Source: an uncultured Porphyromonadaceae bacterium (GTDB lineage Bacteria; Bacteroidota; Bacteroidia; Bacteroidales; Muribaculaceae). Taken from it: a DNA stretch of 46,789 nt. This document shows, in pieces, positions 39,267 to 44,321 of this stretch; positions within the stretch are counted from its first letter, which is position 1, and each line of letters opens with the position of its first letter. The stretch lies in the NCBI GenBank assembly GCA_947174305.1, contig CAMWIH010000002.1:1-46789 (forward strand), given 5' to 3'. Both the position numbers and the translations under genes were made by a program. The notes below the pieces were generated by a model. That model ran no database searches. It was not told the origin of the DNA and saw only the letters and a program-made list of their open reading frames with translations.

Positions 39267-40526
39267 TTAATTTAACAATGAGGTGCATTTCTCCCGATTG
39301 GAGCGGAAGGTGTAGCCGAGGCCTAACATGAGGTTGCTCTGGCGCTGGAAGTTCTGTAGTTGGTAACCGATGTTGAGGTAAAGGGAGCGGGTGAGATACA
39401 CTTTGAGATTGGCCATCTGGTAGGTGGCCCGAGATTCTTCGGGTCCCATAAAGTTATAACCCATACCGATGTTTACGGAAAAAATGGGCATTACAAGTTC
39501 GGCGCGCGCCGCAAGGCCAACGCAGACCTGACTGAAGAAAGGTGGCCGGGAGAAACGTATATCTTCCGACGTGTCGCCACTTATGTGATAATGTCTCAGA
39601 TCGGTGCTCTGATCCCACTGGAAGTCGGCCGAGACACCGGCACGGAAATACCTCTTGATATCGCACATAGGGGCAAAACTCAATCCGGCCACGGCATAAT
39701 GTCCGTCAAGCAATACCGGGGTCTCCCCTCCCCTGTAAACGCGCTTACGCCACGCTCCGTAGCCTGTGAGGTCGTAACTCAAGAGATGATGCCGGAATGT
39801 AGAGTCTGACCTGAATGGCGTCCCTTCAACCCTTTTGCCGAATGTCCGGCTCACTCCTACCCGGAGTCCGAGAAGATTCACGCCGGGATTGGGGAAGGAG
39901 GTGTTGCCGTCGGAGAAATGAGTGAGGTCGAGACCGGCGATAAGGGAATAATCCGGCGTAAGTTTCCATTTCACACCAAGGCCGAGATTGATATATGCAT
40001 TCATTCGTGAGCCTACGATAAGATTGGAGGAAGCTGTGCAACCATCACATGGCTTCCATCCCATCGATGCGCCGAAATTCCATTCATAGTCAAGACTAAG
40101 GCGGTCATTGAAATTGACGATGGGGGCTGTCTGGAAGAGATATAATGAGACCGGGGTTCCGATTGATTTGCTATAATCGAATATATTCACTCCTGCTCCC
40201 ACCCCTTGGGCAACACCCGGATACAGGTGCCCTACCTCGGAAGCGGGAGTGAATGAGAAGCCATATTTCAGATGCAGGGATGTGCCGAAATGGGTGTAAC
40301 GTGCATCCTTCATCGAAAGCCTTTCACTCAGCACGTCGTCAAGAAAGGAGGAGAACGCATACGAGGACCTAACATCAAAGCCTACCTTCGAAACAATTTT
40401 TCTATCTATGTTTTTTAACAACGAGTCTTTGATTTCATATTTATTTGTTTGAGCGTTGACTGAAAAACAAAGAATATGAAACAAAAGAAATATAAACAGA
40501 AATCGAATTCTATATACTACCTCCAT
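39267..40526 (-). CDS. PagL-like lipid A deacylase / acyloxyacyl hydrolase (outer-membrane)
   Basis: A 419-aa beta-barrel protein. Signal peptide ~1-25 (FLFIFLLFHILCFSVNAQ). Alternating hydrophobic strands run throughout. A PagL-type active-site segment GLDLTHFSDGNTSFPNPGVNLLG has the His-x-Ser pair and the conserved PNPGvN. These proteins remove acyl chains from lipid A in the outer membrane and are larger in Bacteroidota than in enterics. The N-terminal extension (~30-150) is unassigned. The C-terminus ends in strands typical of barrels. It is convergent with the esterase gene across a bidirectional terminator. Confidence 0.8.
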   Translation of the reverse strand: MEVVYRIRFLFIFLLFHILCFSVNAQTNKYEIKDSLLKNIDRKIVSKVGFDVRSSYAFSSFLDDVLSERLSMKDARYTHFGTSLHLKYGFSFTPASEVGHLYPGVAQGVGAGVNIFDYSKSIGTPVSLYLFQTAPIVNFNDRLSLDYEWNFGASMGWKPCDGCTASSNLIVGSRMNAYINLGLGVKWKLTPDYSLIAGLDLTHFSDGNTSFPNPGVNLLGLRVGVSRTFGKRVEGTPFRSDSTFRHHLLSYDLTGYGAWRKRVYRGGETPVLLDGHYAVAGLSFAPMCDIKRYFRAGVSADFQWDQSTDLRHYHISGDTSEDIRFSRPPFFSQVCVGLAARAELVMPIFSVNIGMGYNFMGPEESRATYQMANLKVYLTRSLYLNIGYQLQNFQRQSNLMLGLGYTFRSNREKCTSLLN

Positions 40527-40546: not shown

Positions 40547-40969
40547 CTATAATCCATTCACCAGTCTATATATCCCTTTTCTATACGGCAACGGATCTGA
40601 AAGGCGACCTAACCCAAAATCCTTTACACCAAAATTAATTAGGTACCCAAGTTTGAAATTCGTAAGTCTTAGATCGGTTAAAATTTGTCTTCCCTGCCTT
40701 TCTACAAGTTCTCCCAATGCCTTCACCTCAATTATCACCCTATGATCCACAACCAAGTCAGCACTATACTTGGAATTTATTATATGTCCCTTATAGGTTA
40801 CAGGCACAGGAAGTTCCATTTCAACCACATAACCTTTCTGTTCGAGTTCCCATTTTAAAGCGGACTGATAATATTCCTCTCTCATTCCGCGTCCTACAGT
40901 ATTCCTTACCTCAAAGGCGGCTCCGATGATATCACTGCCTATATCTATGTAATCTGGGTGAAGTGCCAT
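40547..40969 (-). CDS. GxxExxY family protein
   Basis: About 140 aa from ATG 40969 (MALHPDYIDIGSDIIGAAFEVRNTVGRGMREEYYQ); the upstream 51 residues of the ORF track have no family match and are rejected. The naming motif is G-M-R-E-E-Y-Y. Later YSADLVVDHRVIIEVKALGEL has the D..E.K pattern of PD-(D/E)XK-like nucleases, followed by LINFGVKDFGLGR. The family is uncharacterised and often scattered near mobile or repeat sequences. Here it sits beside two MITE-like repeats and a RecD2-like helicase. A DNA-related role is suggested by the fold-like motif but unproven. Confidence 0.88.
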   Translation of the reverse strand: MALHPDYIDIGSDIIGAAFEVRNTVGRGMREEYYQSALKWELEQKGYVVEMELPVPVTYKGHIINSKYSADLVVDHRVIIEVKALGELVERQGRQILTDLRLTNFKLGYLINFGVKDFGLGRLSDPLPYRKGIYRLVNGL

Positions 40970-41136
40970 ATCTATTTTTTTCAAATATAGCACATTTAAG
41001 GAAGATACACAATTATTTCCTCTCTTAAATTTGTATTTTTCATTATAGGTGACATAAGGGGATAACTTATTAATTGTGCTGGTAATTATTAAATGGCGAA
41101 GGAGATGAAAGAGAAACCACATTTAATGTTCATGGG

Positions 41137-41218
41137 TATGAAAAGGAATCGCTTATTTAATATCTATGAAGATGAAAAGGTATCGTTTATTTAATATCTA
41201 TGAAGATGAAAAGGTATC
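41137..41218 (+). repeat. 34-bp tandem repeat, 2.4 units
   Basis: Units at 41137-41170 and 41171-41204 (ATGAAAAGG[A/T]ATCG[C/T]TTATT...) plus a partial third at 41205-41218. The third copy runs straight into the left end of the first MITE-like element. Confidence 0.85.
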
Positions 41219-41423
41219 GCGGATCTTTTAAGCCTGACGGCCTTCTGCGGATGGAACGCGGATTTTCTTATAACTTATCTTATTGACTATCCTAGTACTA
41301 ATATATGTATCGCTACACGATTCGCATAAATGCGAATCGTGTAGGCATATTGAAGCGGATTATCGCTGATCCGCGTTAATCCGCGCCTACAATCGCTTCG
41401 CGATTAAAAAGTTCCGCGATGCC
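41212..41423. repeat. MITE-like element, copy 1 (212 bp)
   Basis: Left end GGTATCGCGGATCTTTTA, right end TAAAAAGTTCCGCGATGCC: degenerate terminal inverted repeats. It shares GCCTGACGG, CGCGGAT and the right block CCGCGCCTACAATCGCTTCG with copy 2. It carries an extra internal hairpin, CTACACGATTCGCA / TGCGAATCGTGTAG at 41313-41344. No ORF inside. Confidence 0.75.
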
Positions 41424-41525
41424 TCTTAATTTTATTCTTTATCCAACCCTACTTTTTTTACTCAATCCAACCGGATTCCAGGAATGTTACATTTCATAAC
41501 AAGGGATATCTGAGGAGATGAAAAG

Positions 41526-41676
41526 GGAATCGCGGATCTTTTAAACCTGACGGCTCTCCGCTGATGGAGCGCGGATGTTCTTGATTCTGCAAGTCACTTA
41601 TCAGCCTTATCATCAATTTTAAATCCGCGGTAATCCGCGCCTACAATCGCTTCGCGATTAAAAGATCCGCGATTCC
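41526..41676. repeat. MITE-like element, copy 2 (151 bp, perfect 18-bp TIRs)
   Basis: GGAATCGCGGATCTTTTA (41526-41543) and its exact reverse complement TAAAAGATCCGCGATTCC (41659-41676) bound the element. The interior shares several blocks with copy 1. No transposase is present, so any mobility would need an enzyme supplied in trans. Confidence 0.8.
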
Positions 41677-41748: not shown

Positions 41749-43683
41749 CTATGGCTCTTCACCTTTCCTCAGCCTGTACTTAAAATTGGAATGGCGGGAA
41801 CCGGAGGGTGTGTTCTCCACCGCATAACGGATTGCCTCCTCTTCGCCAACAAGAATGCAGAGGTCGGTGGCCCGGCTCACGCCGGTGTATAGCAGGTTGC
41901 GATAGAGCATCGGCTTATGAGCCATAGTGACCGGGATGATGATATTCTTAGCCTCCGAACCTTGAAGCTTATGAACCGTGGTGGCGTAGGCCAACGTCAG
42001 CTCACTCAGTTCACTGCGTGCATACACCGATTTGCGCCCGTCGGAAAAGGTGACCTCCAGCGTCTGCTCCTCCGGCCTCACCTCCGTTATGCATCCAATC
42101 TCGCCATTATATACACCTCGCTCACGCGAATTAGCCGTCTGCATCACCGGGTCGCCAAGACGCATGACGGTAGCACCACGTCGCAAGGCCGGCCCCTCGG
42201 GGTTAAGGCGTTCCTGAAGATCCATATTCAGTTGCCGCGCCCCCAAACGCCCTATCTGCTGAGGGGTGACAACAAGAATATCCTTGGGCGAGATGCCACG
42301 CGATGCAGGCAATTCCTCGGCCACAAGCCGCAGGATGCGGTCGTGGATGCGTCCAACGGTGGGCTCCGGCAGAATCATAAGGTCGCGGTCCGGATCGGAC
42401 TGAGGCACCTCTCCGCTATTGATTGCCCTCGCCCCCGAAGCGATAAGGCTTCCCTCCGACTGACGGAAATTCTCATTCAGATGCGCCACCGGCACGCGTC
42501 CCGAAGCAATCAGGTCGCGCAACACATCCCCGGCTCCGATGGCCGGCAACTGGTCGGCATCACCTACCAGTATCACCCTCGTGCCGAGCTTAAGGGCTTG
42601 CAGGAGATGGTTGAATAGCACCTGCTCCATCATCGAGCTCTCATCGATTATAAGCACATCGGCATCTATCTTCTTATTGCGGTAACCCTCCCCCTGCCGA
42701 TAACCCAACAGGCTGTGTATTGTGGAAGCGTGCGTGCCGGTGAGCTGGCTTAACCGTTTTGAGGCACGTCCGGTAGGGGCAGTCAGCACCACTCGTTTCC
42801 CCTGCCGTTCCAGCATATCGATGATTCCTTTCACAACAGTGGTCTTCCCGGAGCCGGGGCCACCCGTTATGACCACCACAGGATGATCCATCGCCATCTT
42901 CATGGCTTTTAGTTGCAAGGGAGAATAGACATGGCCCAACTGCGAACGTTCCGGCAATTCCTCCTCAGGAACAGGCTCAAACTCTACCGAGGCCAATTCC
43001 GAGAGCCTTTCCGCCCCCTCCTTCTCTGCCGTATAGAACACAGGGAGATACAACCCTCCCCTGCTCTCCACAAGCCTTCCCGATTCAACCGTGCGCTTTA
43101 TTTCCTTTGCCACTTTCTCCGGGTCAACACCTGTCATTTTTGAGGCACCGGTCACGGCTTCCTCCTGAGTAGCGAAAAGATGCCCCGCCTCGGCGAAATG
43201 TTTCACGGCCGTCACCAATGCTCCTTCGATGCGTCGGGGATCATCCTGGGGAATACCTAACTTGCGCCCAATCTTATCGGCAGTGAAAAAGGAGAGTTGC
43301 CATACATCCTCCACCATCGAATAAGGGTCGGTGAGTATGACCTGCACGGCACGTTTGCGATACTTATTAAGAATCCGTTCGATAAACATATCGCTCAGAC
43401 CGCACGAGAAGAGGAAGACAAGCAACCTAATGTTCCACTTAATATTCTTCAGGCTTTCGTGGGCCTTGGCTAGGCGCGCAGCACCCAATCCGCCCACCTC
43501 CTCTGCTCTCTCCGGCTCCTCGGCGAGAACCTTGACGGCATCAGTGCCGAACCGTTCCACCAATTTCTTGGCGTAAGCCGGACCGATCCCCTCCACCCAA
43601 GGGGAGGCAAGGAATTCCTCAACGCCCTCATCGTTTATCTCTAAATCTTTTCCACCTATATTTTCATCGTGTGTGCTTTCCAT
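41749..43683 (-). CDS. recD2: RecD2-like SF1 DNA helicase
   Basis: About 644 aa from ATG 43683 (MESTHDENIGG); the extra 18 residues of the ORF track are rejected. The N-terminal helix-hairpin-helix segment is VEGIGPAYAKKLVERFG. Helicase motifs follow in order: Walker A VVITGGPGSGKTTVVKG, Walker B DVLIIDESSMM, motif III LVGDADQLPAIGAGDVL, ENFRQSEGS, and C-terminal YATTVHKLQGSEAKNIIIPV and YTGVSRATDLCILVG. This is the RecD2/TraA-like 5'-3' helicase family acting in repair or recombination without RecBC. It is somewhat shorter than typical ~720-740 aa RecD2. It stands alone on its strand next to the repeat-rich spacer. Confidence 0.9.
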   Translation of the reverse strand: MESTHDENIGGKDLEINDEGVEEFLASPWVEGIGPAYAKKLVERFGTDAVKVLAEEPERAEEVGGLGAARLAKAHESLKNIKWNIRLLVFLFSCGLSDMFIERILNKYRKRAVQVILTDPYSMVEDVWQLSFFTADKIGRKLGIPQDDPRRIEGALVTAVKHFAEAGHLFATQEEAVTGASKMTGVDPEKVAKEIKRTVESGRLVESRGGLYLPVFYTAEKEGAERLSELASVEFEPVPEEELPERSQLGHVYSPLQLKAMKMAMDHPVVVITGGPGSGKTTVVKGIIDMLERQGKRVVLTAPTGRASKRLSQLTGTHASTIHSLLGYRQGEGYRNKKIDADVLIIDESSMMEQVLFNHLLQALKLGTRVILVGDADQLPAIGAGDVLRDLIASGRVPVAHLNENFRQSEGSLIASGARAINSGEVPQSDPDRDLMILPEPTVGRIHDRILRLVAEELPASRGISPKDILVVTPQQIGRLGARQLNMDLQERLNPEGPALRRGATVMRLGDPVMQTANSRERGVYNGEIGCITEVRPEEQTLEVTFSDGRKSVYARSELSELTLAYATTVHKLQGSEAKNIIIPVTMAHKPMLYRNLLYTGVSRATDLCILVGEEEAIRYAVENTPSGSRHSNFKYRLRKGEEP

Positions 43684-43753
43684 AATAACGTGTAAGGGGA
43701 AGATAATCCCCTCATAGTTAAAACGTACCCCTCCCAAGATAGTTCATACGCGT

Positions 43754-43958: not shown

Positions 43959-44321
43959 ATGAATCCATCAAATATCCACTCAGAAGAATCTGACAACATA
44001 TATCCCCAGATAAAACAAGTGCTTCTGAAGGCACGCGCCCAAGTGTTGACTACTGTCAATAACGCTATGGTGCAGGCCTATTGGCACATTGGCAAACTAA
44101 TAGTTGAGGCGCAGGGAGGAGAAGAGAGAGCAACGTACGGTAATAATCTTCTAAAGTCACTCTCAGTTCGCCTTACAAAAGAATTTGGGAAAGGCTTTGA
44201 CCCATCAAATCTGAGGAACATGAGAGCATTTTATCTTACGTTTCCAAATTGTGACTCACTGAGTCACAATTTGGGAACAATAGAAATTACGCGCCAAAAA
44301 TTTAAATTAATTCACAGCTAA
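43959..44321 (+). pseudogene. Truncated DUF1016 (YhcG-like nuclease) N-terminal fragment
   Basis: A 120-aa ORF matching the DUF1016 N-terminal domain: QVLTTVNNAMVQAYWHIGKLIVEAQGGEERATYG, then LTKEFGKGFDPSNLRNMRAFYLTFP. Full-length family members are about 330-370 aa with a C-terminal PD-(D/E)XK nuclease domain. Here the reading frame leaves the family after ~105 residues and ends in unrelated sequence (EITRQKFKLIHS), so the nuclease half is missing. DUF1016 genes are often found in defence islands and restriction loci. A fragment this clean, with a good promoter, may still be expressed as a short DNA-binding or structural remnant, but loss of function is more likely. Confidence 0.8.

Follow-up and report, generated by a model that had tools for sequence, protein, structure and literature searches.

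A small nuclease gene inside or beside inverted arms of a seven-letter word looks like an undescribed class of mini-element

The window analyzed here is 46.8 kb long and is designated as contig C2 of a Bacteroidales assembly of 2.8 Mb, which comprises 225 contigs and is 88% complete. It carries two short palindromic elements upstream of a gene of the GxxExxY family (TIGR04256 / PF13366 PDDEXK_3), which is annotated without a function. These copies are probably gene-less (non-autonomous) palindromic mini-elements, and their likely partner is the GxxExxY protein, a predicted PD-(D/E)XK nuclease, whose start codon lies 244 bp from the nearer copy. The partnership of GxxExxY genes with such palindromes is well supported by the comparisons described below, from which we infer recognition of the iterated word by the nuclease and mobilization of the palindromes. 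We also propose, tentatively and at somewhat less than even confidence, that GxxExxY genes and their word arms constitute an unrecognized class of mobile or selfish elements in prokaryotes, found in many bacterial phyla and in archaea. In this class, the nuclease would recognize a heptamer iterated within a palindrome and would spread both gene-bearing and gene-less copies, and units with the four-helix-bundle family TIGR02436 would form a sister class using other words.

Copy 1 (212 bp; positions 41213–41424, minus strand, which is the canonical orientation) and copy 2 (151 bp; 41526–41676, minus strand) have the sizes given in the original prediction and are separated by 101 bp. The exact terminal inverted repeats of copy 2, previously put at 18 bp, extend over 19 bp: the left repeat, GGAATCGCGGATCTTTTAA, occupies 41526–41544 on the plus strand, and the right repeat occupies 41658–41676 on the minus strand. 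The two copies have common blocks of 61 bp (85% identical) and 41 bp (98%). Copy 1 indeed contains the additional internal hairpin that had been noted (41308–41349, no strand assigned), the arms of which (41308–41327 and 41330–41349) are 90% complementary. Each copy contains an iterated word on the minus strand, namely ATCCGCG TTA ATCCGCG in copy 1 (41369–41385; CGCGGAT when read on the minus strand) and ATCCGCG GTA ATCCGCG in copy 2 (41623–41639). Of 15 exact CGCGGAT/ATCCGCG words in the entire window, nine fall within these 465 bp. When folded as single-stranded DNA and compared with dinucleotide shuffles, both copies were far more structured than expected (z = -8.2 for copy 1 and -5.0 for copy 2, with 0/200 shuffles equal in each case). 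Three 34-bp tandem repeats (41121–41222, no strand assigned), absent from the original prediction, abut and overlap the edge of copy 1, and similar short tandem duplications precede the copies on contigs C31 (L005, ~1450–1530) and C101 (L002) of the same genome.

The elements lie, as originally described, between the GxxExxY gene (40547–40969, minus strand, 140 aa) and a helicase gene, which encodes the host protein RecD2 (41749–43737, minus strand). Both copies, the GxxExxY gene, and recD2 are all in minus-strand orientation. On the left, the GxxExxY gene is followed by a host gene for a PagL-domain protein (39267–40526, minus strand). The assignment of the 140-aa product to TIGR04256 is secure (114.7 bits against a cut-off of 35), and PADLOC and PHROGs searches with this protein returned nothing. 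Elsewhere in the window, a 120-aa open reading frame (43959–44321) matches DUF1016 in its N-terminal domain only and is probably a truncated gene.

A genome search for more copies, which had been suggested as a check, revealed six on five other contigs: two on C101, one of them truncated, and one each on C1, C31, C164, and C166. Because related copies sit on five other contigs, those in the window are not chance palindromes. The whole copies elsewhere in the genome are ~220–380 bp long. All family members have one end of the form GG(N)ATCGCGGATCTTTTTAATCGC...GCGATTNTGGCGCGGAT and an opposite end of the form ATCCGCG(N4)ATCCGCGG...GATCCGCGAT(N)CC. In the family alignment, the core positions of the outer stem are invariant, and the internal hairpin varies in sequence while its pairing is kept, with seven pairs showing compensatory changes on both sides. 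One further pattern match, on C197, was rejected as probably a chance occurrence, given that it sits in a coding-like stretch. Among 40 relatives searched by blastn, only the genome G015 gave a match besides the source genome itself, which indicates that the element sequence is narrowly distributed while the word architecture, as described below, is broad. An Rfam search yielded no relevant family. Template switching at hairpins, in which the palindromes are by-products of replication or repair with no dedicated enzyme, would also yield the compensatory hairpin changes and the 34-bp tandem repeats that border copy 1. We nevertheless regard this explanation as highly improbable, since it predicts neither the enrichment at one nuclease family nor the tracking of word and protein documented below.

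The site downstream of recD2 is filled in 3 of the 26 genomes of the genus that were examined, that is, in the window genome, G015, and G190; the element, the GxxExxY gene, and the PagL gene are all missing there from the remaining 23. G015 has a GxxExxY gene that is 98% identical in nucleotide sequence and a single element, in which the left part of copy 1 continues into the right end of copy 2. Accordingly, either the window gained one copy or G015 lost one via the shared 41-bp block. In G190, one element is present and the GxxExxY gene is reduced to two remnants of ~50 bp. This persistence of a palindrome next to gene remnants only, as well as the one-sided position of the palindromes in the window, counts against the GxxExxY partnership at this locus. 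The site is thus not conserved, and diverged synteny blocks a clean comparison with empty sites. The finding of six further copies, together with the empty sites in most congeners, is opposite to what the original prediction named as its refutation, namely no further copies and presence in all strains. Its proposal of a plain insertion hotspot, on the other hand, is not the best reading of the locus, as the neighboring GxxExxY protein is probably the cognate enzyme.

The description of the copies as MITE-like holds for their anatomy: they are dispersed, bounded by terminal inverted repeats, structured, gene-less, and absent from the site in 23/26 congeners. The search for a conventional transposase with matching ends, in which the four Y1 genes were examined individually, revealed none. 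The elements, with their ends GGNATCGCGGATC, could in principle be ordinary MITEs and GxxExxY a bystander; a transposase of the DDE or another type, since lost or encoded in unassembled parts of the genome, would then have mobilized them in trans. The terminal repeats and dispersal agree with this idea, and the 88% completeness of the assembly and the scope of the DDE search leave room for it. We consider it unlikely, however, because unrelated phyla have the same class of arms directly beside GxxExxY genes, which is not the behavior of a bystander, and because no transposase with matching ends turned up. The elements differ from MITEs in that the terminal inverted repeat is a periodic array of words; no parental DDE element or target-site duplication was seen. 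No obvious direct repeat flanks the ends of the window copies, the closest empty sites being too diverged to define one; the lack of a target-site duplication or a datable insertion is a further point against the partnership.

By function, the closest known system is that of REP/REPIN sequences and RAYTs (REPtrons), in which short structured palindromes are accompanied by a cognate enzyme gene flanked by the repeats (PMC3116915, PMC2817692, PMC3733652). GxxExxY elements resemble it in having short structured palindromes, many copies of which are gene-less, and in that the same repeats flank the enzyme gene. They are nevertheless distinct in enzyme and arm structure: REP/RAYT systems have an HUH Y1 transposase and defining GTAG/CGTC end tags, whereas GxxExxY elements have a PD-(D/E)XK nuclease and arms made of iterated 7-nt words, with no such tags seen. 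In the window copies, a GTAG or CGTC tag was absent from the foot of the palindrome at both ends, which read GG(N)ATCGCGGATC. The palindromic, doublet-like anatomy, the many copies, and the presence of four Y1_Tnp genes in the genome would fit mobilization by a RAYT, but none of these four genes is flanked by the element and different repeat arrays are found there, making a REP/REPIN-type origin very improbable. RAYT was therefore rejected as the partner. Three of the four RAYT genes have adjoining repeat arrays of their own (L024, L026, and L027) that are unrelated to the element.

The residues E31, D71, E81, K83, and Q95 are invariant in GxxExxY proteins, and Y99 is present in at least 90% of them. 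This E - D - ExK - QxxxY set is that of RecB-like PD-(D/E)XK nucleases. The window protein keeps the invariant E, D, ExK, and Q but has D99 in place of the QxxxY tyrosine, which its G015 ortholog retains; judging from the sequence, the window enzyme may be impaired by this replacement, a point against its role as partner. An AlphaFold2 model of GxxExxY was confident (pLDDT 90). Foldseek and profile matches were all below significance, and the top ones were PD-(D/E)XK DNA enzymes: lambda-type exonucleases, Cas4, Hjc, and T7 endonuclease I. GxxExxY has core residues in common with these junction and end nucleases, but given that the matches are sub-significant, their function is not transferable to it.

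Evidence for the partnership comes from the DNA surrounding GxxExxY genes. At least one such gene occurs in 82 of 149 sampled Bacteroidales genomes, and its flanks contain a locus-specific word repeated every 8–12 nt in inverted arms on both sides. A first regular expression for CGCAGATT-type units matched few loci, because every locus has its own word, and a word-agnostic score was used instead. It records a 7-mer (at most one mismatch) that is paired 8–12 nt apart on one strand and found again as the reverse complement, within 350 bp upstream and 350 bp downstream of the gene. The score was positive for 74/82 GxxExxY loci, whereas the figures were 81/217 for control ORFs from these contigs and 18/82 for shuffles; it reached at least 9 for 70/82 GxxExxY loci versus 48/217 controls (Fisher 6e-24). 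Among one-sided segments, 47% of those adjoining GxxExxY were positive, as compared with ~10% farther out. We also scanned 84,980 species genomes with a tighter GxxExxY set (A2). The best 80 loci, a biased sample, included Bacteroidota, Chlorobi/Ignavibacteria, Proteobacteria, Planctomycetes, Verrucomicrobia, Acidobacteria, Chloroflexi, Cyanobacteria, methanogenic archaea, and others, and the score for loci drawn from these 80 was positive for 64/70 GxxExxY genes versus 54/134 controls (p 2e-13). For example, the arrangement is CACCACAGAGACACAGAGACACAGAG - gene - CTCTGTGTCTCTGTGTCTCTGTGGTG in a betaproteobacterium and ACCACGAAGGACACGAAGAGCACGAAG - gene - CTTCGTGCTCTTCGCGTCCTTCGTGGT in a planctomycete.

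In most genomes, a full unit consists of an arm, the GxxExxY gene, and an inverted arm, each arm being ~25–33 nt long and built from one 7-nt word (7–8 nt) with a period of ~8–12 nt; a solo unit consists of an arm, a loop, and an arm. The commonest word shape is CRCRRAK (e.g., CACAGAG, CGCAAAG, and CGCAGAT), which occurred 335 times upstream on the sense strand (38 in shuffles) and 342 times downstream on the antisense strand (26 in shuffles), with a peak within 40 nt past the stop codon. The window word CGCGGAT matches this shape, and gene-less copies are expected in the proposed class. The palindromes in the window are situated only upstream of the GxxExxY gene, with none after its stop codon, so that the gene is not between arms; the locus fails the ±350-bp test and passes when 500 bp upstream is taken. 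The second GxxExxY gene of the source genome (on C198) is flanked on each side by a different word, ACAGGAG. In its word, gene-less palindromes, dispersal, and nearby GxxExxY gene, the window fits the class, but it is not a type specimen, because the gene lies outside the palindromes, the nearest proteins have -AG words, and the catalytic tyrosine is replaced. GxxExxY units or word palindromes are located at or close to the ends of many contigs (L073, L086, L094, L105, and L129–L138), and draft assemblies therefore probably under-count these units.

Words were also counted genome-wide across the 149 Bacteroidales genomes by using the pattern CTCTGTG-N3-CTCTGTG with one mismatch allowed. At least five copies were present in 27 of the 82 genomes with GxxExxY versus 5 of the 67 without (p 1e-4), and the totals were 811 and 93 copies, respectively; a reversed control pattern was near zero. 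The five word-rich genomes without a detected GxxExxY gene count against the partnership. In two of them, G087 and G140, the inspected clusters were often at contig ends, and hence the gene may be absent from the assembly.

For comparison, we examined the unrelated TIGR02436 four-helix-bundle family, to which the ORFs of 23S rRNA intervening sequences belong. CRCRRAK occurred only 3 times upstream on the sense strand and 5 times downstream on the antisense strand in 30 loci, a near-absence indicating that this word type is specific to GxxExxY. Iterated words of other types nevertheless frequently bracket TIGR02436 genes themselves, which is again evidence against the partnership proposed for GxxExxY: 14/29 loci scored at least 9, with words such as AGCCAATAGCC, GTAGATGAGTAG, and TTAGCTTA. 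Loci bracketed in this way include L299, L302, L309, L310, L311, L320, and L321. Iterated-word brackets may be a wider principle.

The word varies along with the protein. Protein identity correlated with word identity across the 114 loci at which a word was clear (Mantel r 0.48, 0/2000 permutations), and the correlation held for cross-phylum pairs (0.43, 0/1000 within-phylum permutations). The exact word was common to the nearest protein neighbor in 59% of cases versus 18% expected. The window word is of the -AT type, and the closest relatives of the window protein by identity have -AG words, which counts against the partnership. The residues A37 and G114 were considered as markers of word specificity, since they distinguished -AT words from -AG words in the large set. 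They were rejected because Cys occurs in the position-37 motif of radA-site cassettes with AT words, and they probably mark lineages instead.

The gap between radA and an FAD-protein gene in Bacteroides (L260:2900–3430 and L262–L291) illustrates turnover at a single site. A unit is present in 7 of 28 genome loci with radA adjacent. In clade 1, which includes B. finegoldii (L260), the GxxExxY proteins are 76–90% identical and the arms are of the TTCACCACAGAGGACACAGAGG type with the word CACAGAG; in clade 2, they are 75–82% identical to each other and 54–61% identical to clade 1, and the arms are of the TTCACCACAGATTACACAGATT type with the word CACAGAT. One clade 2 unit has a mixed left arm, and one of the seven units is a decayed gene. 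The remaining 21 gaps are 15–102 nt long, a few with relic arms. These filled, empty, and relic states indicate that a single site has seen the gain, loss, or replacement of units, with the word changing along with the protein.

An important limit on the word–protein tracking is that common descent of a linked gene and its arms also explains it. It is conceivable that GxxExxY and its arms are passed on vertically, or now and then by transfer, as one unit whose arms serve expression, as terminators or in mRNA protection, or an IVS-like RNA excision, with the word not recognized by the nuclease. In 23S rRNA intervening sequences of Coxiella and others, an ORF is enclosed by inverted repeats (PMC4990558). 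These sequences are similar in size (~0.4–0.8 kb), have a small S23/four-helix-bundle ORF within stem-forming inverted repeats, and have been proposed to be selfish or mobile (PMC4990558); they sit in 23S rRNA, whereas GxxExxY units lie between protein genes and combine an iterated word with a nuclease. Transcription of a gene with such arms around it would likewise yield RNA stems, physical linkage alone would produce the word–protein correlation, and the IVS ORF family TIGR02436 is often bracketed by iterated words too. We nonetheless judge this explanation improbable, on a par with ordinary MITEs, as it accounts neither for gene-less palindromes scattered away from the gene nor for the retention of the same word in both arms and in all iterations. 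Linkage by itself leaves both features unexplained.

The comparisons thus document directly the anatomy of the elements, their dispersal, the bracketing of GxxExxY genes, the tracking of word and protein, and the turnover of sites. Under the proposed partnership, the GxxExxY nuclease would recognize its own word in an extruded hairpin or cruciform and cut there, after which repair or strand transfer would copy or exchange the palindrome. By analogy with REPs and RAYTs, solo copies would spread in trans. Our full-text literature search found no account of an association between GxxExxY and iterated words; it covered few subscription papers and preprints, where a prior description is possible.

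GxxExxY is a common family of no known function, and its near-universal DNA context and co-varying word provide a testable substrate for it. If the partnership is true, it would represent a second, chemically unrelated type of enzyme for the REP/RAYT principle and would account for the CACAGAG, CGCAAAG, and CGCAGAT repeats scattered through many genomes. It would also reveal a family of nucleases whose short recognition word varies naturally.
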